From: a virus
Strand: one strand, 5' to 3'
DNA: 43,356 nt
IMG/VR virus record: IMGVR_UViG_3300006790_000037
Location: 1-43,356 of that record
Within the stretch, counting starts at the first letter, position 1; each line of letters begins with the position of its first letter. This document shows positions 6,032 through 42,954 of the stretch, piece after piece. The notes under the pieces are model-generated. The model had not been told where the DNA came from. It ran no database searches and saw nothing but the letters and a program-made list of their open reading frames with translations. The position numbers and the translations under genes are program-made.

Positions 6032-6221
6032 TGACACTAACCCCCCCTACATACCACAAGAATTACTGGAGTGGTTAGAGGGTATTTATCCCTTGAAACC
6101 TTCCACTCTTATCGACACTATCGATAAAATCCGTTACGAATCTGGCCAACAATCTGTCATAGAATTTATTCGGATGACCCTTGAAGAGCAAAATAATCCA
6201 GAGAATTTATTAGATTCGTAA
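6021..6221 (+). CDS. conserved hypothetical protein, 66 aa
   Basis: The product contains PQELLEWLEGIYPLKPS and SGQQSVIEFIRMTLEEQNN. This arrangement (a short YIPxELLEWLE helix, then GxxSVIxFxRxxxEEQN) is one I associate with small proteins just ahead of the structural genes in T7-like phages of aquatic bacteria; the role is unknown. It overlaps the nrdB stop by 11 bases. No membrane segment is present. Confidence 0.7.
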   Translation: MTNSDTNPPYIPQELLEWLEGIYPLKPSTLIDTIDKIRYESGQQSVIEFIRMTLEEQNNPENLLDS

Positions 6222-26184: not shown

Positions 26185-26637
26185 GTGGATTCTGAAAGCC
26201 TCTCAGGGACTAGGTTTGAGTGGGGTCTACACTATCGGAAGATATTTGAAGGGATACTTAGTATTATATATAATACTTAAGATACTTTAAGAGATAAGAG
26301 ATGTATTACGAAGTAAAGACTCTTATCCTGGTAAAGAGATACTAAGATATGTTTATTAGTGTTCTTTATTGATTAACTAACTAACTGATTAGTAAGACTT
26401 AAGTATCTAGTATTGTGTATATCTTTAAAGAATTATATAGAGTAGTAGATAGAGTGTCTCTTAGAGATACTTGAGAGTATTAGAGAGTCTCTTGAGAGTA
26501 TTAAGAGAGTACTCTGAAAGAGAGAGTCTTAAAGAGTTCAAGTGGTACTCTAAGTAGTCAAGAGAGTCTAAGTGCGTAACTAAGTAAGGGGGGTAGGTTA
26601 GTCGTAAGACAACCCCCCTACCAGAGACTCCTTATCA
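26185..26637. repeat. 453-bp gene-free, AT-rich repeat region between terminase and integrase 1
   Basis: No convincing frame. It holds a perfect 18-bp palindrome AGTATTATATATAATACT (26260-26277), several scattered GATACTT-type words, and a tandem repeat: CTTGAGAGTATTAGAGAGT (26470-26488), then a near copy with one extra A (26491-26510). Purine-rich AGAGAGTCT words fill the rest. In T7 the concatemer junction and terminal repeat lie just after the large terminase, so this is a candidate packaging or terminal-repeat region. Confidence 0.5.
26588..26618. terminator. strong hairpin between convergent terminase and integrase 1
   Basis: GGGG-TA-GGTT-A-GTC, loop GTAA, GAC-AACC-CCCC forms an 11-bp interrupted stem in the gap between convergent genes. 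No T-run follows on either strand, so it may act as a weak or factor-assisted bidirectional terminator. Confidence 0.45.
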
Positions 26638-27516
26638 TTAATAAAGCTTACTGATATATTCTAGTCCTTTACTCTTCACATAACCCATAGTCACTTTGAT
26701 ATCACTATGCCCACTCCACTCTTGTGTAATTACTAAGGGAATCCTAGGGTCATTAGCCCACTCAGTGATTCTATAGTGCCTTAGAGAGTGTGGAGTTACT
26801 TTGAGACCACTAGAGTCCGAGAGCCTCTTGAGTCTCGATATGATTGAGTACCTGTTATCTAAGAGTTTAATATCCTTATTGAGTAGTTGTTCTTTAGCTT
26901 TCTGACTAAGTGGTACTATCCTATCTTTGTCACCCTTACCCCCTTTAACATTGATGTAAGAGTGTTCTTCATCTAGTACACAGTGGCCTAGTCTCAGGTT
27001 AGCTAACTCTGATACTCTTAAGCCTGTCTCACTCAGTAGGATAAGTATCTGTCTTTGTTCTTTAGTTGCTACAGTAAGTAGTTTATTCAGTTGTTCAGTG
27101 GTTATTAAATTCTGCTTAGGTCTATAACCCACAGGCTTCTTAGGATACAATGCTTTGATTTGTATTAGTTCTTCTTCATCCAACTTACCTATACTCACTA
27201 AATACCTTGCCATCGAAGAGACACTAGAGTGCTTCCATTTACGTAGGGAGTACTGGTGAGTCCCTGTGGCCCTTAGGTAGTCATTAAGGTTCTTGCTTGA
27301 TACTTTATTGTATCGACTGAAGTAGTCTAAGAGATACTCGTGTACCTTGTGTTTGTAGGTATCACTTAGGGGCGGTGTAAAAATCCCTTGGGAAACCCAA
27401 TCCCACCAGTGTTTCAGCCATTGTTTGTGGTGTTTTAGACGATAGTAAGTGGCCCGTGAGACTGGTAAACCAGTTGTTGAGACTGCTCCAGCAGTTGTTG
27501 ATATGCCTTGATACAT
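26638..27516 (-). CDS. int: tyrosine recombinase / phage integrase 1
   Basis: Catalytic residues: Arg in ETGLRVSELANL, Lys in GGKGDKDRIVPL, His-x-x-Arg in HSLRHYRI, His in EWSGHSD and the nucleophile Tyr in VTMGYVKSKG, 14 residues from the C-terminus. The N-terminus has a helix-turn-helix-like stretch (STTGLPVSRATYYRLKHH). I place the start at the ATG giving MYQGIST (about 292 aa). The frame stays open upstream to 27642, but there it only translates the antisense tRNA fragment (MATNHEVGRSNRSGR), so that extension is probably not protein-coding by design. The adjoining tRNA-derived attP makes this the likely lysogeny integrase. Confidence 0.88.
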   Translation of the reverse strand: MYQGISTTAGAVSTTGLPVSRATYYRLKHHKQWLKHWWDWVSQGIFTPPLSDTYKHKVHEYLLDYFSRYNKVSSKNLNDYLRATGTHQYSLRKWKHSSVSSMARYLVSIGKLDEEELIQIKALYPKKPVGYRPKQNLITTEQLNKLLTVATKEQRQILILLSETGLRVSELANLRLGHCVLDEEHSYINVKGGKGDKDRIVPLSQKAKEQLLNKDIKLLDNRYSIISRLKRLSDSSGLKVTPHSLRHYRITEWANDPRIPLVITQEWSGHSDIKVTMGYVKSKGLEYISKLY

Positions 27517-27540
27517 AATGAGACTATTTGCTCCAAAAGT

Positions 27541-27636
27541 CTCAAGAGTCTCCCCCTGTAAAATGGTGCGCCCTGAGCGATTCGAACGCCCGACCTCATG
27601 GTTCGTAGCCATGCAGAGACCAGCGTGACTCTTGAG
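27541..27636. repeat. attP region: 10-bp inverted repeat flanking the tRNA core
   Basis: CTCAAGAGTC (27541-27550) and its exact inverse GACTCTTGAG (27627-27636) sit almost symmetrically, 13 bp on each side of the tRNA-derived core. A further imperfect palindrome TCAACGATATTGTTGA lies at 27639-27654. Such repeats are good candidates for integrase or excisionase binding sites. Binding is inferred from symmetry and context. Confidence 0.6.
27564..27613 (-). other. 3' half of a tRNA-Arg(ACG) gene = probable attP core
   Basis: On the minus strand this is an anticodon arm (CATGG-CTACGAA-CCATG, anticodon ACG), variable loop AGGTC, T arm (GGGCG-TTCGAAT-CGCTC), acceptor strand AGGGCGC and ACCA. It aligns base by base with the 3' half of bacterial tRNA-Arg(ACG). 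No 5' acceptor strand or D arm is present upstream, so it is not a working tRNA. Phages that integrate into tRNA genes carry exactly such a 3' fragment, so the host site is inferred to be tRNA-Arg(ACG). Confidence 0.88.
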
Positions 27637-27642
27637 TTTCAA

Positions 27643-30973: not shown

Positions 30974-31576
30974 TCATAACTCTGTGATAATCAAAGTCAC
31001 TTTGTAAAGGTGCTGAATATTCTGCTTAGGTATTTTGTAAGGCTTATAACTCTCATTGTCGCTCAACAGCTCTACGGTATCCTTATGCCTCTTGAGTCTC
31101 TTAACCTTCAGAGTCTCATCATACTGTACCAAGCACACATCACCACTCTGAGCCTCTCTGTTAGAATCCACCAATACCAGCGAGCCACTGGGAACACTAG
31201 GGGCCATAGAATCCCCTCGGACCTCAAAGAGAAAACATTGCCTAGGGTCATCCGTCCCTTTAGGTATTAACTTGTTTGGTAGGTGCACCCACGTCTCAAT
31301 AGACTCCTCACCCTCCACAAAAGCCCCATCGTGACCCATAGAAGCGCTGTGAGCCGCTAGTGGGACCTCAGTAAAAAATCCCCGCCTCAAATTATTTTTA
31401 GAATCTTTGGGCAAACTACAGTACCTTGCCACATCAAATTCATCTCGTGCCAATTGTTCAATAATATCAGCGACACTCCCCTTGTAAACATCTTTAAGCC
31501 AACCCTGTGCAGTGGGAGTAATTCTCGCATTGACAGTGTGGTCTTTGGTTTCATTATATTTAGGATTATTTGCCAT
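30974..31576 (-). CDS. phage repressor: ribbon-type N-domain fused to S24 (LexA/CI) peptidase
   Basis: A 200-residue repressor. Residues ~14-45 (TVNARITPTAQGWLKD, GSVADIIEQLAR) form a small DNA-binding-like domain shared with the gene at 28446-28628, in place of the usual helix-turn-helix. The C-terminal half is an S24 autopeptidase: nucleophile Ser123 in FEVRGDSMAPS, VPSGSLVLVD, and general base Lys159 in LKVKRLKR. A likely self-cleavage stretch is VPLAAHSASMG (~71-81). This predicts RecA-stimulated cleavage and induction by DNA damage. It faces the integrase 2 promoter and probably binds the TTGCATTRATT operators. Confidence 0.9.
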   Translation of the reverse strand: MANNPKYNETKDHTVNARITPTAQGWLKDVYKGSVADIIEQLARDEFDVARYCSLPKDSKNNLRRGFFTEVPLAAHSASMGHDGAFVEGEESIETWVHLPNKLIPKGTDDPRQCFLFEVRGDSMAPSVPSGSLVLVDSNREAQSGDVCLVQYDETLKVKRLKRHKDTVELLSDNESYKPYKIPKQNIQHLYKVTLIITEL

Positions 31577-31670: not shown

Positions 31671-32543
31671 ATGAGTATTAGTAGTAGTAGTAGTAAACTG
31701 CCAGTTGGCAGTCGCAGTAAAAGTATAACACTTGAGTCCGCTTTGGAGGAAGTGTACCACATTACCTGGCAATACCAGCGTGATGGTTACAAGTCATTCA
31801 AGAACACTCAAGACATCCTGGACCTCCTCGGACCCACGAAGAGACTCAACAAACTATCGACAACAGACATCGATAAGGCTGTTGAAGCCCTTCGAGAACG
31901 AGGTAATTCCCCAGGGACAATCAACAGGAAGCTCTCAGGGCTCTCAAAGGTCCTTCAGCACTCTTGTGTCCGTGGGTACATCCAGACAAAACCTCACATC
32001 CCATTCCAAAAAGATAAAGAGTCCAAGAAAATCCGATGGGTCACAAAAGAGGAAGAGGCTCAGATACTCTCTTATTTTCAAGACAATAACCTTCCTCACA
32101 TGTATGACATGACTGTCGTATTAATTGACACAGGACTCCGCTATTCAGAACTGATTAAATTAGAACCTGAAGATATTATTGTAGAACCAGAAGGGGTAAG
32201 CATTTATGTCCATCGCAATACCAAGAATAACACCAGTAGGGTCATACCACTCACAGAGAGAATCTCGAAGAGTCGAATCAAGTTACCCCTTACAGATATC
32301 ACCTCTCTTGGACGTAATCGAGTGTGGTATGAGTGGCGCAAGATGCAAAAAGCCCTCGGACTACCTGACGTGGTTATCCACACTCTCAGGCACACCTTCT
32401 GCTCAAGGCTTGTACAGGCTGGTGTAAACATGAAAACTGTACAAGATTTAGCAGGTCACGAAAGTATCCAAACAACACTCAGATACTCCCATCTTGATAA
32501 CAGCTCCAAGCGGAGAGCTATCGATGTATTGAATGGCTTGTAA
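31671..32543 (+). CDS. int: tyrosine recombinase / integrase 2 (RNA polymerase-linked)
   Basis: A 290-residue tyrosine recombinase with an N-terminal SAM-like domain (TTDIDKAVEALRERGNSPGT) and catalytic core: Arg in DTGLRYSELIKL (~155), Lys in HRNTKNNTSRVIPL, His-x-x-Arg in HTLRHTFCSR (~237-240), His in LAGHES (~262) and Tyr in TLRYSHLD (~270). It starts with a run of Ser codons (AGT repeats). Position directly before the RNA polymerase gene matches the integrase of T7-like cyanophages. No tRNA-like att sequence is seen next to it, unlike integrase 1, so its role may be integration elsewhere, resolution or a relic. Confidence 0.92.
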   Translation: MSISSSSSKLPVGSRSKSITLESALEEVYHITWQYQRDGYKSFKNTQDILDLLGPTKRLNKLSTTDIDKAVEALRERGNSPGTINRKLSGLSKVLQHSCVRGYIQTKPHIPFQKDKESKKIRWVTKEEEAQILSYFQDNNLPHMYDMTVVLIDTGLRYSELIKLEPEDIIVEPEGVSIYVHRNTKNNTSRVIPLTERISKSRIKLPLTDITSLGRNRVWYEWRKMQKALGLPDVVIHTLRHTFCSRLVQAGVNMKTVQDLAGHESIQTTLRYSHLDNSSKRRAIDVLNGL

Positions 32544-35322: not shown

Positions 35323-35380
35323 TTCATTAAGAAGCCTAGGTCTACACTAACGATAATAAAATTTCAAAGGTTCTTAAGAG

Positions 35381-37149: not shown

Positions 37150-37662
37150 ATGACAATAGAGATACAACAAACAAATCTTGTATCGCCTAATATTCTTAAA
37201 CAACTTAAAAAACGCTCAAAGACAGACTATATTCTTGTGCACCACTCAGCTAATACTGAGAAGCAGGATATAGGTGCTGCTGAAATTAACATTACTCATA
37301 TACGACGTGGGTATACAATGGGAGGCTATCATTACGTCATCAGGCGCAATGGGGACATCGAAGCTCTAAGACCTCAATGGTCTCATGGGGCTCACTGTTA
37401 CGATAAATACTCCCCTAAGTCCTGGCCTATCAATGGGAGTTCCTTAGCTATCTGCATGATAGGTGGAGTCTCTTCAAAGACTGGTAAGGCTTCCAATAAT
37501 TTTACTAAGCGTCAATGGGCTTCTTTAGAGAAACTGGTTAAATACTTACAACAATTATTCCCAGGGGCTAAAGTAGCTGCCCATCGTAAGTTTATGGCGA
37601 CACAATGCCCTGCGTTCGACGTGACGTATTGGGCTCAAGAAAAAGGTTTAGAACATGCTTAA
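37150..37662 (+). CDS. N-acetylmuramoyl-L-alanine amidase (T7 lysozyme gp3.5-like)
   Basis: A 170-residue zinc amidase. Zn ligands and catalytic sites are visible as His in ILVHHSANTE (~30), MGGYHYVIRRNGDIEALRP, HGAHC (~80) and Cys in ATQCPAFDV (~155). It is about 20 residues longer than T7 lysozyme at the N-terminus (TIEIQQTNLVSPNILKQLKK), the side that contacts RNA polymerase in T7. It probably acts both in lysis and as a polymerase inhibitor; the latter is by homology only. No signal peptide, so a holin is needed. Confidence 0.92.
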   Translation: MTIEIQQTNLVSPNILKQLKKRSKTDYILVHHSANTEKQDIGAAEINITHIRRGYTMGGYHYVIRRNGDIEALRPQWSHGAHCYDKYSPKSWPINGSSLAICMIGGVSSKTGKASNNFTKRQWASLEKLVKYLQQLFPGAKVAAHRKFMATQCPAFDVTYWAQEKGLEHA

Positions 37663-37930
37663 ATTTTTAAAGGCGATTGGGCCAGCTTATAAGTTCCTTA
37701 ATTCGGAATGGTTTGAGCCAGCTTACGCCATTATTACTGAGGTGATGGATTTACTGGATGGTGATGCCACTCAAGCAGATGTTGAGGATGTCGTTGCTGC
37801 TGTACATGTAATCCTCCCAACACACATCACAGAGAAATATCCTTTACACAAAATCAATCCTGCTATCCGAGCGGGTTATAACTTCGTTGTTTCGATTATC
37901 AACATGATGTATCCAGCAACAGTAAAATAA
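37655..37930 (+). CDS. hypothetical protein, 91 aa
   Basis: Overlaps the amidase stop. The protein MLKFLKAIGPAYKFLNSEWF... contains ATQADVEDVVAAVHVILPTH and ends with a hydrophobic segment (AIRAGYNFVVSIINMMYPA), possibly membrane-associated. No family is recognised. Coupling to the amidase suggests a lysis-related role, but the evidence is position only. It is followed by the structured gene-free region. Confidence 0.6.
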   Translation: MLKFLKAIGPAYKFLNSEWFEPAYAIITEVMDLLDGDATQADVEDVVAAVHVILPTHITEKYPLHKINPAIRAGYNFVVSIINMMYPATVK

Positions 37931-37952
37931 CATATTTAGTATTCCCTAGGGC

Positions 37953-38250
37953 CCGATGAGCGCGGTAGTTCGTCGGTGATTATCCGGTCACACATTTAAT
38001 ATTAAGTTGGTGCCCCAGACCGGATGTTTTACCTCGGACTTGGTTCCACTTGTTTATAACAAATGTTAGCTGCCGAGGTTTGCCAGCGGCAAAATAATTC
38101 CGCTGATTACATGCTTCACGCCTTCCCTTTTAGAACAGGTTACTTTGTGAGGCTTGTTAGTAGAGGCACTGCTGGGATTACTCGGTGGTGAAGTCTGGAC
38201 CCTCTACGAAGTTCAAGGGGTTGTTTTTGGATTCCCTTAGATAGCCCCTT
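37953..38250 (+). ncRNA. candidate novel structured RNA, ~300 nt, seven consecutive hairpins
   Basis: No frame is convincing in this 359-bp gap, but helices follow one another closely. CCGATGA/TCGTCGG (37953-37976), TCCGGTC/GACCGGA (37983-38024) and ACCTCGG/CCGAGGT (38031-38079, enclosing TTGTT/AACAA) come first. CAGCGG/CCGCTG (38084-38105), GCTTCAC/GTGAGGC (38113-38153, one wobble), GTAGAGG/CCTCTAC (38160-38207, enclosing CACTG/CGGTG) and AAGGGG/CCCCTT (38215-38250) follow. Most are perfect 6-7 bp stems. It matches no RNA class I know: no group I P7, RNase P, tmRNA or tRNA signatures. An HTH gene follows. Confidence 0.6.
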
Positions 38251-38289
38251 TTACTTTTCTATCAACAATAACAAAGGAGTAGTAGTCGT

Positions 38290-38511
38290 ATGAAAAATCT
38301 AAAATTTCGTAAAGGCTCACAGATTGAGTCTATTTACAAACACATGCTCACAGGGCGTACCATCACCCCCTTAGAAGCCTTGGGACTCTACGGGACCTTC
38401 CGTCTCGGTGGTCATATCTACAGCCTAAAGAAGAAGGGCTGCAAGATTCACACAGAGATTCGTGAGGACTTGAATGGTCACATCTACGCCGAATATTCAT
38501 TGTGTGGTTAA
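38290..38511 (+). CDS. HTH_39-like small DNA-binding protein, 73 aa
   Basis: QIESIYKHMLTGRTITPLEALGLYGTFRLGGHIYSLKKKG is the pattern of the small winged helix-turn-helix family found widely in phages (GxTITPLEALxLYGxxRLxxxIxxLxxxG). A basic C-terminal wing (CKIHTEIREDLNGHIYAEYS) completes it. AAAGGAG lies upstream of the start. It probably binds DNA; the target is unknown. Its gene directly follows the structured RNA region. Confidence 0.8.
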   Translation: MKNLKFRKGSQIESIYKHMLTGRTITPLEALGLYGTFRLGGHIYSLKKKGCKIHTEIREDLNGHIYAEYSLCG

Positions 38512-38822: not shown

Positions 38823-40466
38823 GTGGGAGAATATATCTCGAAAGGGCCTTGCCCACACTGCATGAGCTCAGATGCTTATGTATTATATGTTGATGGAGGG
38901 GGGAAGTGTTTTTCATGTGGAGTTTCCGACAGCAGCAGTAGTAAAGGAAGTTATGACTCACCTAGAAGTGACACTCCGAGACCTCTCATCTCTGATATCG
39001 ACATAAAGCCTATTAAGAAGCGAGGAATCACCCAGGCTACCTGTGAGAAATGGGGGTACGGTTACAGCACCTACAACGGTAAGAAGGTACAGGTCGCTTC
39101 CTACAGAGACTCGAAAGGGGCTCTAATCGCTCAGAAGCTCCGATTCAAAGACAAGAGCTTCCTTACTACAGGGGATTTCAAGAATGTCTCTCTGTTCGGC
39201 TCTTGGCTCTGGAGAGAATCTGGGAAGATGATTGTCATCACTGAGGGAGAGATTGATGCTCTTTCAGTATCTCAATTACAGGATAATAAGTGGCCTGTCG
39301 TCTCGATACCAGCAGGGGCTCAAGGTGCTAAAAAGTCTGTTCAACAGAATCTGGAGTACTTGGAGCAATTCGATAAAGTCATCTTCATGTTCGACCAGGA
39401 TGAGCCTGGCCGTAAAGCTGTTGAAGAGTGTTGTGATGTCCTGAGCCCAGGTAAGGCTTACATTGCTACATTGCCTCTTAAAGATGCCAACGAGATGCTC
39501 ATGGCTGGTCGAGGGGATGAAGTCCGTAGTGCTATGTGGGATGCGAAACAGTACAGTCCTGCGGGTATTATCGATGCTGCTGAGTTGTGGGGTGAACTGA
39601 TTACCCCAAATACCGAAGAGTCCCTAGAGTACCCGTGGCCTTTCCTGAACACGATGACTCATGGAATGAGGACCTCAGAGATTGTCACGATAACCTCTGG
39701 GAGTGGTATGGGTAAGTCCCAGTTCTGTCGTGAAATTGGGCATCACATCCTCAAGTCAGGTGATAACTTAGGCTACATTGCTCTTGAAGAGTCGAAGAAG
39801 CGTACTGTCTTAGGGTTAATGTCAATTGATTTAAGTAAACCTCTCCATGTCATGCAGAATAACCCTGAGGAGTTGAAAGAGTCTGAAGAAGCTCAGCAGT
39901 CTTTCCAAAGCCTCTTTGTGAGTGGAGAGTCTCGTTGTTACATCTATGACCACTTTGGCTCTGTGACTCCTGAATCTCTGATTAGTAAGATTCGGTATCT
40001 CGCTAAAGGCTTGGAGTGTAAGTGGATTATCTTGGACCACATCTCTATTGTTGTCTCAGGTATAGCTGATGGGGATGAACGACGCTTGATTGATAACTTA
40101 ATGACTCGTCTCAGGACTGTTGTTGAGGAATTGAATATCGGTCTATTACTCATCTCTCATGTCAAACGCAACACAGGAGGTGCTAAAGGCTTCGAGAGAG
40201 GCTCTGAGATTAGCCTCAGTGACCTTCGAGGTTCCTCTGCGATTGAAGGGCTATCGGATATGGTGATTGGCTTAGAGCGTAACCAACAGGAAGAAGATGA
40301 AGAGCAGCGACATATCACTAAGGTACGTATTTTAAAGAACAGGTTCACCGGAGAGACTGGAGTTGCTGGGTGTCTAAAGTATTCCCCTGAGACGACGAGA
40401 CTTACGGATTATGAAGAGCCTGAGTTTGATGATGTAGAAGAACAGGAAGGAGTAGATGATTATTGA
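38823..40466 (+). CDS. primase-helicase (T7 gp4-like)
   Basis: A 547-residue bifunctional replication protein. Zinc-binding primase domain: Cys10, Cys13, Cys29, Cys32 (CPHC and CFSC). TOPRIM acid cluster: ITEGEIDALS (~140) and MFDQDEPGRKA (~190). RecA-like helicase: Walker A TSGSGMGKSQF (~290), Walker B KWIILDHISIV (~400), and SLSDLRGSSAIEGLSDMVI. The C-terminus is acidic (EEPEFDDVEEQEGVDDY), the tail that recruits DNA polymerase in T7. GTG start. Length matches T7 gp4 (566). The DNA polymerase start overlaps its stop. Confidence 0.95.
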   Translation: MGEYISKGPCPHCMSSDAYVLYVDGGGKCFSCGVSDSSSSKGSYDSPRSDTPRPLISDIDIKPIKKRGITQATCEKWGYGYSTYNGKKVQVASYRDSKGALIAQKLRFKDKSFLTTGDFKNVSLFGSWLWRESGKMIVITEGEIDALSVSQLQDNKWPVVSIPAGAQGAKKSVQQNLEYLEQFDKVIFMFDQDEPGRKAVEECCDVLSPGKAYIATLPLKDANEMLMAGRGDEVRSAMWDAKQYSPAGIIDAAELWGELITPNTEESLEYPWPFLNTMTHGMRTSEIVTITSGSGMGKSQFCREIGHHILKSGDNLGYIALEESKKRTVLGLMSIDLSKPLHVMQNNPEELKESEEAQQSFQSLFVSGESRCYIYDHFGSVTPESLISKIRYLAKGLECKWIILDHISIVVSGIADGDERRLIDNLMTRLRTVVEELNIGLLLISHVKRNTGGAKGFERGSEISLSDLRGSSAIEGLSDMVIGLERNQQEEDEEQRHITKVRILKNRFTGETGVAGCLKYSPETTRLTDYEEPEFDDVEEQEGVDDY

Positions 40467-41827
40467 ACCGTCTATTATTTGATATAGAAACAAATGGTTT
40501 CTTGGACCAATTGGATACTATCCATTGCTTAGTCATCCAGGACTTAGATACCAACGAAATTTACTCATGCTCCGATGCTCCTCCTATGAAAACTGATTAC
40601 ACCCCCTTGTCAATTGATGAGGGGGTTTTTTTGCTTCAAGAGGCTGAAGAGCTTTGGGGACATAATATTCAGGATTTTGACATCCCTGCTATTAAAAAAG
40701 TAAAACCTAACTTCCAGCCTAAAGGGCGAATCCGAGACACTTTAATTATCTCCAGGCTTATCTGGACCAATCTATCTGACTTGGATGCTTCATTCCAACG
40801 TAAGAAGCCAGGAAGATTAGAGAAGAAGAATGTAGGCAGACACTCCCTAGAAGCATGGGGGCAACGTCTAGGTTTATGGAAGGGAGATTTTAAAGGCCCT
40901 TGGGATGCTTGGACTCAGACGATGCACACGTATTGCGAGCAGGATGTTAAGGTCAATAGAAAGCTAGTGGATAAGATAGTCTCTAAAAAATACTCAGAGA
41001 CTGCTATTCAGTTAGAGCATGACTTCGCAAAGATTATTAGGATACAAGAGTCTCATGGAGTCTTGTTCGATGTGAAGAAGGCTCAGGGACTTACAAATAC
41101 AATGCTTAAAGAGAAGCAGGAATTAGAGAAGCAACTGATTAATAAGTATTTCCCTGATAGATTCGAGCAGGTAGGTACAAAACCTGTCGAAGTCAAATCG
41201 AGTCGCTTAATGAGGAAGGGTCTTCCCTGGCCTGTGAAGTACACTAAGGGGTGCTCGTACTCAAAAATTAAACTCGTACAGTTCAATCCTAATAGTGGGG
41301 ACCACATCGCTAAGCGCTTCAAAGAGAAGCACAACTGGAAACCTAAGAAATTTACTGAGTCAGGTAAAGCTGCTGTGGATGAACAAGTCCTTAGTAGTCT
41401 TGAGTATCCTGAAGCGAAGCATCTACTGAAGATAGCTCTCTTGAATAAACGGTTAGGTCTTATTTACTCAGGGACTAATGGTTGGCTCAAGAAGTATGTA
41501 GAGAAAACAGGTAGGCTTCATGGTTACTTAAATACCAATGGGGCTGTTACAGGTCGCTGTACTCACAGGGTTATTGCGAACATCCCTAGGGTCACGACTC
41601 CGTACGGTAGGGAGATTCGCGAACTGTTTAAAGTTCCTGAAGACTCTGTGCTTGTGGGGTTTGATGCTTCCGGTTTGGAGCTGAGATGTTTAAGTCACTA
41701 CATGACCCCTTATGATGGAGGGAAGTACAGAGATATCTTACTGACTGGGGATATCCACACAGAGAATCAGGTAGCTGCGGATCTACCAACACGAAATGAT
41801 GCGAAGACATTTATCTACGCCTTCCTT
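40463..41827 (+). CDS. DNA polymerase I family A (T7 gp5-like), exon 1
   Basis: The first 455 codons encode the 3'-5' exonuclease (LLFDIETNG at residues 4-12, HNIQDFDIPAI, and CEQDVKVNRKL) and most of the polymerase (LNTNGAVTGRCTHRVIANIP, motif A GFDASGLELRCLSHYM, and the start of motif B, NDAKTFIYAFL). The TTG start overlaps the primase-helicase stop, with AAGGAG upstream. The frame ends at TAA directly after the codon for Leu in IYAFL, where the group I intron begins. After splicing the next residues are YGAGDGKIG. A terminator-like hairpin lies within codons 47-57. Confidence 0.93.
40601..40632 (+). terminator. terminator-like hairpin inside the DNA polymerase gene
   Basis: CCCCCT pairs with AGGGGG around TCAA/TTGA, followed immediately by seven T. 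It looks like a textbook intrinsic terminator in the sense direction of the polymerase coding sequence. It may stop host RNA polymerase early or be a chance result of the codons; phage polymerase could read through. Confidence 0.55.
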
Positions 41828-42474
41828 TAAATTTAATAGGAGGAAGTAAAACGATGTGAACTCAGGGGACATCTCAAGTAGACAATCCTGAGCCAAGCCT
41901 TACTCATCACGCCTAGGAAGTTGAGGTGTGATTATAGAGAAAAAACAATGTACATCATGTAAACGATTTAAAAATATCCAACAAGAATTTCATAGAGCAG
42001 GTAAAGGCTACCGGAGTCGATGTAAGCTCTGTCGTCTTTACTACGAGAAAAAACGTATATCCGAGAAGCTAGGTCTACCCTTTAATTTAACTGTAGACTA
42101 CTTGCACAGTTTATGGACTGGGATATGCCCTATAACCAACAGTCCCATTTATTTATCGACTGAAGGGGGACCTAAAGCTCATCTTGATAGGTTCTATCCT
42201 GAGCTTGGTTATGTTCAAGGGAATGTCTCGTTCATAAACTCTCGGATGAATGTCCTTAAAAGTAATGGAACTACTCAAGAGTTCCTGATGATTTTAAAGT
42301 GGATGATGAGTAAGGAAGGTGCAACGACTATCCCCTTGTGGGAGTAGGGGTCTAGTGACCTCGAAGCGCATCGTGCCTCTTAGTATTGAGGTAATGATAT
42401 AGTCTGCTCTGCATGGCGACATGTAGCTGGTCTAGTACCGGCAAGGAATTAACGACTCCTTGTGAACACAAAGG
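41828..42474 (+). mobile_element. group I intron (IA2-like) interrupting DNA polymerase
   Basis: Exon CTTCCTT pairs with GGAGGAAG (41839-41846) to give P1 with the required U-G at the 5' splice site. GTAGACAATCC (41878-41888) and GATATAGTCTGCTCTGCATG (42396-42415), followed by GACATGTAGCTGG, closely match the core P3/P4 and P7 parts of the T4 td intron. The intron ends in G before TATGGT, so splicing joins Leu to Tyr in FL|YGAG. An HNH endonuclease gene occupies the peripheral loop. No alternative reading (truncation or frameshift of the polymerase) explains both exons so well. Confidence 0.95.
41928..42347 (+). CDS. HNH homing endonuclease of the group I intron
   Basis: A 139-residue nuclease. 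N-terminal zinc ribbon CTSCKRF...CKLC, then CPITNSPI and the HNH core HLDRFYPELGYVQGNVSFIN, SRMNVLKS, where His, Asn and Asn form the beta-beta-alpha metal site. It should cut intronless DNA polymerase genes of related phages near motif B, spreading the intron. GTG start; its 3' end overlaps the intron core (CCTTGTGGGAGTAGGGG), as in T4 td, so protein and RNA structure share bases. Expression from a phage transcript is expected. Confidence 0.92.
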   Translation: MIIEKKQCTSCKRFKNIQQEFHRAGKGYRSRCKLCRLYYEKKRISEKLGLPFNLTVDYLHSLWTGICPITNSPIYLSTEGGPKAHLDRFYPELGYVQGNVSFINSRMNVLKSNGTTQEFLMILKWMMSKEGATTIPLWE

Positions 42475-42954
42475 TATGGTGCAGGTGATGGAAAGATTGG
42501 CAGAATTATTGGTAAAGGTGTTGATGCGGGTAAGCGGTTAAAGCGTCGATTCTTCCAGAAGATTCCTGCAATTAAAAAAGTTTTAACAAAAGTTAAAGGC
42601 ACTGTTAGTGATAAAGGTTACATCCGAGGGATTGATGGGCGAATCGTACATATCCGGTCTCCTCATAGCGCTCTGAATTTCCTACTGCAATCGACAGGGG
42701 CTATCTTAATGAAGAAGGCTCTCTGTATTTTGTACGAGAAGTTTTGTGAGGCTGGGATGGTTCATGGAGTGGATTATGCCTTCGTGTTGAATATGCACGA
42801 CGAGGCTCAGATAGAGTTGAATGATTTATCGAGACTCGAATTTGTTAAAGAGGCTTGCCTGGAATCTCTCCGAGAGGCTGGCGAGTTCTTTAAGTTTCGA
42901 TGTCCGATAGATGGTGAGGTGAAAGTTGGAAAAAATTGGAGTGAGACCCATTGA
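42475..42954 (+). CDS. DNA polymerase family A, exon 2
   Basis: The second exon begins at TATGGTGCAGGTGATGG and encodes YGAGDGKIGRIIGKG, completing motif B. Then come DKGYIRGIDGRIVHIRSPHS, ALNFLLQSTGAILMKKA and motif C FVLNMHDEAQIEL (catalytic Asp). It ends at TGA after 159 codons, giving a 614-residue spliced polymerase, somewhat shorter than T7 gp5 (704). It cannot be translated alone from a good start until the internal ATG at 42709, so splicing is needed for function. Confidence 0.93.
   Translation, partial: YGAGDGKIGRIIGKGVDAGKRLKRRFFQKIPAIKKVLTKVKGTVSDKGYIRGIDGRIVHIRSPHSALNFLLQSTGAILMKKALCILYEKFCEAGMVHGVDYAFVLNMHDEAQIELNDLSRLEFVKEACLESLREAGEFFKFRCPIDGEVKVGKNWSETH

Follow-up and report, generated by a model that had tools for sequence, protein, structure and literature searches.

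A structured, untranslated RNA candidate ending in a terminator-like hairpin between the amidase and HTH-primase genes of a probably temperate T7-like phage

The amidase-primase junction

The DNA analysed here (the window) is a 43,356-base viral contig, record IMGVR_UViG_3300006790_000037, in which terminal repeats are absent. Its gene set is that of a T7-like phage, plus two tyrosine integrases and an S24-type repressor. The integrase genes (26638-27642 on the minus strand and 31671-32543 on the plus strand) and the S24-peptidase repressor gene (30974-31576, minus strand) point to a temperate lifestyle, and the phage is probably a temperate T7-like phage. The closest isolates detected were Roseobacter CRP, Rhizobium, Pelagibacter and LUZ100-type phages, with protein identity below 60%. 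Little work has been done on temperate T7-like phages, and descriptions of non-coding RNAs from the T7 group are few.

The genes at the junction of interest all lie on the plus strand. An N-acetylmuramoyl-L-alanine amidase gene (Amidase_2, 37150-37662) is followed by a 91-aa ORF (37655-37930) with gene-like codon usage (log-odds +0.20), for which no relative was found in any of the protein searches. A 359-bp intergenic gap (37931-38289) then separates this ORF from a winged-helix HTH_39 gene (38290-38511; PF14090, E 6.9e-8) that precedes the primase gene. The Shine-Dalgarno-like sequence of the HTH_39 gene, AAAGGAG, lies at 38273-38279, beyond the hairpins described below. The G+C content of the gap is 45%, as against 23-38% in most other intergenic gaps, and resembles that of this genome's group I intron parts.

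A chain of predicted hairpins

The first-pass annotation had described seven successive stems at 37953-38250. Thermodynamic prediction on the plus strand placed seven non-overlapping stems, P1 to P7, where they had been claimed, with a mean pairing probability of 0.91-0.99 for each main helix. P1 (37953-37976) is a 9-bp hairpin with the loop GCGGTA, beginning 22 nt past the stop codon of the 91-aa ORF. P2 (37981-38026) is a 9-bp stem, TATCCGGTC/GACCGGATG, with a mean pairing probability of 0.96; the AT-rich hairpin that it encloses is weak (0.3-0.5). P3 (38031-38079; mean pairing probability 0.98) is formed by 7 bp, ACCTCGG/CCGAGGT, around a small inner hairpin, TTGTT/AACAA. P4 (38084-38105) is a 6-bp hairpin, CAGCGG/CCGCTG, overlapped by a competing hairpin, TTTGCC/GGCAAA, and the two are mutually exclusive. 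P5 (38109-38157) consists of 3 + 8 bp, ACA/TGT and GCTTCACG/TGTGAGGC, at 0.91-0.94, and P6 (38160-38207; 0.99) of 7 bp, GTAGAGG/CCTCTAC, stacked on a 10-bp hairpin with the loop ATTA. P7, the last stem, is terminator-like.

The folding energy of this segment was compared with that of dinucleotide-shuffled sequences. The plus strand of 37953-38250 has a minimum free energy of -106 kcal/mol (z -4.46), a value reached by 0 of 200 shuffles, while the minus strand gave a z of only -0.93. When the segment was split, P7 alone scored z -5.3 and P1 alone z -4.0, whereas the part before P7 scored z -3.0 (1/400 shuffles) and P2-P6 z -2.2 (8/400). The energy signal is therefore concentrated at both ends of the chain.

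A second comparison, against 400 shuffles, counted well-defined helices, meaning those of at least 6 bp with a mean pairing probability above 0.9. The whole segment has 8, compared with a shuffle mean of 1.9, and no shuffle reached 8; without P7 the count is 7 (mean 1.5), and without both P1 and P7 it is 6 (mean 1.4), again with 0/400 shuffles as good in each case. For this predicted fold, the helix count is a stronger measure of non-randomness than the folding energy, although such counts describe the predicted structure of one sequence and are no evidence of function. On a fixed genome-wide grid of 255-nt windows covering both strands, 11 of 1,438 reached 6 helices, including the grid window at the focal segment (37981) and two from the group I intron region. 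A non-coding, hairpin-rich region after the terminase gene (26185-26637) also reaches 6 helices and has the strongest fold in the whole contig. As modelled, the hairpins of 37953-38250 are non-random and their fold exceeds chance, which agrees with the initial claim that so dense a chain is not expected by chance.

Coding potential and known RNA classes

The gap had been said to lack a credible gene and the segment to belong to no recognised RNA class, and the analysis supported both statements. No open frame with coding-like codon use was found in 37931-38289: codon log-odds in the six frames ranged from -0.16 to -0.01, with one short stretch at +0.15, as against a gene mean of +0.20. Rfam gave no gathering-level match in the window, and the best sub-threshold matches in the gap had E values of 1.4 and 4.8; this is a weak negative, since the gathering-level search also missed the group I intron of this genome. 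ARAGORN reported no tRNA or tmRNA, and 37900-38300 contains neither an Intron_gpI match nor a GATATAGTC core.

The group I intron lies elsewhere in the contig, where the T7-type DNA polymerase gene is split (40463-42954). A polymerase-A match lies in 40463-41830 and a polymerase C-terminal match at 42709-42954, and between them are an HNH-type endonuclease ORF (41928-42347) and a group I intron signature (GATATAGTC) with its core within 41831-42426. The Intron_gpI match in 41700-42426 (26.8 bits, E 1.7e-4) is below the Rfam gathering score and appeared in the permissive search only. The annotation of ProddE likewise places an intron in the DNA polymerase gene.

The seventh stem as a putative intrinsic terminator

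P7 (38215-38250, with its tail within 38208-38260, plus strand) pairs AAGGGGTTGTTT with AGATAGCCCCTT and has a T-rich tail that, read from where the CCCC run stops, is TTTTACTTTT. Compared with the GC-rich stem of at least 7 bp plus a loop that was looked for, P7 has 12 bp with a GGGG/CCCC core of 4 GC pairs and a pairing probability of 0.99, and the T tract directly follows with one interruption. The loop is long, at 12 nt, and a simple terminator scanner did not list P7 because the loop exceeds 8 nt. From this predicted fold, P7 looks like an intrinsic terminator. The initial description of the segment as a structured RNA candidate thus stands as regards its stems and non-coding status, while it overlooked the terminator nature of the seventh stem.

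Additional evidence for a terminator at this junction came from related loci. Of 62 distinct related loci, 18 have a terminator-like hairpin no more than 160 nt past the amidase gene, among them Rhizobium phages, Roseobacter CRP phages, pelagiphage-like contigs and LUZ100, whereas the other 44 lack one by the same criterion. As a control, the criterion was applied inside the amidase gene of the 62 loci and gave no hits. ONT-cappable-seq has been used to map the regulatory elements of the T7-like phage LUZ100 (PMC10134795), and there the phage promoter phi4 and the terminator T6 are annotated in the interval from the amidase gene to a DNA-binding-protein gene. Synteny thus supports the view that a terminator belongs at the amidase/HTH junction. 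Given the terminators of the relatives and LUZ100 T6, a terminator would be expected here, and it is the six preceding hairpins that are unusual.

The position of P7 also bears on whether the segment could be a regulatory leader of the HTH-primase operon, an attenuator or a ligand- or protein-sensing element that would choose between termination and read-through. Such a leader could account for a terminator directly before the ribosome-binding site of the HTH gene and for the two exclusive hairpins at P4 (TTTGCC/GGCAAA versus CAGCGG/CCGCTG), and a phage that appears temperate would have reason to regulate its replication operon. However, the analysis identified no anti-terminator that pairs with the terminator arm, the main stems give one structure at 0.9-0.99 probability, which is not suggestive of a switch, and no Rfam riboswitch was matched. 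Since the segment ends in a terminator-like hairpin before the ribosome-binding site of the HTH gene, it is more naturally read as the 3' end of the upstream transcript, and we consider a leader decidedly improbable.

Candidate promoters

The nearest candidate promoter for the phage RNA polymerase, GGTCTACACTAACGATAA, is at 35339-35356 on the plus strand, after the RNA polymerase gene and 2.6 kb upstream of the chain. The sequence GGTCTACACTAWCG occurs exactly twice in the genome, at this site and at 26224, where it follows the terminase gene. A weaker copy lies at 6110; all three are on the plus strand and have the consensus GGTCTACACTAWCGRWA. The core, CTACACTATCGGAAG, resembles the T7 promoter. 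The 35339 site is proposed as a promoter on the strength of its second copy after the terminase gene and this likeness to the T7 core, and all three sites are candidates for recognition by the phage-encoded RNA polymerase. The position of the 35339 site corresponds to that of LUZ100 promoter phi2.

No promoter of the type at 35339 and 26224 was found directly before the hairpin chain, and the simplest transcript would therefore be polycistronic, starting at 35339. This has consequences for a stand-alone phage ncRNA of about 300 nt and of an undescribed class, which would be made during infection from its own promoter near 37935, would have the terminator as its 3' end, and would either target a host RNA or protein in trans or serve as a scaffold. 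Such an RNA would fit the large excess of well-defined helices, a G+C content above that of most other gaps and resembling the group I intron parts, the closing of the 3' end by a terminator, and the lack of an Rfam family. It is nevertheless unlikely: in addition to the missing phage-type promoter, sigma-70-like matches in the region are not above chance level, no relative was found anywhere searched, and antisense matches of the segment within the phage genome do not exceed 12-14 nt. The suggestion that the segment is an abundant phage ncRNA or a large regulatory leader is thus unsupported so far, with a terminator before the next ribosome-binding site and no promoter directly before the chain.

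Search for relatives of the segment

Homologous gaps in T7-like relatives, which the first-pass annotation had proposed to compare, were sought, and neither a similar gap nor any relative suited to a test for compensatory base changes was found. About 180 loci were gathered from two primase scans, from scans with the amidase, RNA polymerase, 91-aa and HTH proteins, and from annotated phage regions; the closest relative among them has about 55% primase identity, in collections that may leave out records very near this stretch. DNA similar to the hairpin segment was absent from all of these loci. A blastn search (word size 11) of phages and plasmids gave short matches only (E at least 0.09), and the regions inspected were judged to be chance. 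Single-sequence covariance models R1 (P2-P4) and R2 (P5-P6), run on 67 sources, found only this stretch itself and one weak opposite-strand R2 match inside the focal region, and nothing across the whole related records. One R1 match among 289 genomes (E 0.009) is expected by chance. Overall, P1-P6, about 255 nt, matched no Rfam family, and none of the searches produced a relative.

Several other leads were discarded. Low folding energies in three related loci (L001, L002 and L012) belong to GC-rich coding sequence of the adjacent gene. A direct repeat flanking the segment, TTTAGTATTCCCT/TTTTGGATTCCCT, is at chance level, and motif discovery by expectation maximization (EM) returned purine-rich ribosome-binding-site signals only. 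A related viral contig (L120) has a 187-nt non-coding gap between its amidase and HTH genes (2599-2785), with no excess structure overall (z +0.8).

A scan of 16-mers showed that two viral contigs share one from P6, within a UvrD-like gene, where anchored similarity around the 16-mer was matched by 0/400 and 12/400 shuffles, as the best of 12 tested; the resemblance has no protein-level support. This shared 16-mer, with some flanking similarity, is consistent with the segment being the relic of a lost gene, or with chance hairpins ahead of an ordinary terminator. The same may be said of the variability of the junction, which holds small ORFs in relatives and genes 3.7 and 3.8 in T7, of the P2-P6 energy z of only -2.2, and of the lack of conservation among the loci searched. 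A relic or chance origin is nonetheless quite unlikely, since the helix count exceeds that of 400/400 shuffles even without P1 and P7, the six-frame codon log-odds are far below those of genes, and protein-level support for the UvrD likeness is lacking.

A terminator-bounded intercistronic segment

The explanation we favour, at about an even chance, is that an intrinsic terminator closes a structured, untranslated intercistronic RNA segment, which forms the 3' end of the endonuclease-amidase transcript and separates it from the HTH-primase operon. We infer termination at P7, a promoter at 35339 and a protective or processing role for P1-P6. Transcripts of the phage RNA polymerase would start, probably, at 35339 and cross the genes for the ssDNA-binding protein, endonuclease, amidase and 91-aa product before reaching the chain of six hairpins. 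Part of them would stop at P7 and its T-rich tail. Fewer would then read through into the HTH-primase operon, which has its ribosome-binding site past the terminator. P1-P6 would most likely guard the upstream transcript against exonucleases at its 3' end, or be cut out as a stable fragment.

The data in support of a terminator-bounded segment are the fold signal on the plus strand only, the helix excess, the strong fold of P7, the terminators of relatives and the lack of a coding signal. Against it, P7 accounts for the last 50 nt only, its T tract is interrupted and its loop 12 nt long, and 44 of the 62 loci have no terminator by the criterion used. Moreover, one hairpin at 2-50 nt from the amidase is enough in relatives, and six extra hairpins are therefore not needed for termination. 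If the chain were a stable RNA, the place where lysis genes meet replication genes would hold a new element, regulatory or structural; if it is only a fortified terminator, it would be a variation on a common boundary element.

Comparison with known systems

The large ornate ncRNAs GOLLD, ROOL and OLE of phages and bacteria, the first two of which occur in phages, are likewise non-coding and dense in helices. In contrast to them, the segment described here is much shorter (about 300 nt), matches no Rfam family and yielded no conserved counterpart in the searches. Group I introns, one of which is in this phage's DNA polymerase gene, have a similar G+C content and density of stable helices, whereas the focal segment is outside any gene, without a GATATAGTC-type core or an intron match. 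The closest parallels are the terminators of LUZ100 (T6), CRP phages and Rhizobium Paadamvirus phages, which lie on the plus strand at the same amidase-HTH/primase junction and consist of a GC-cored hairpin with a T-rich tract. One important difference is that theirs is a single hairpin 2-50 nt past the amidase stop codon, whereas here the 91-aa ORF and about 255 nt of further hairpins precede the terminator.
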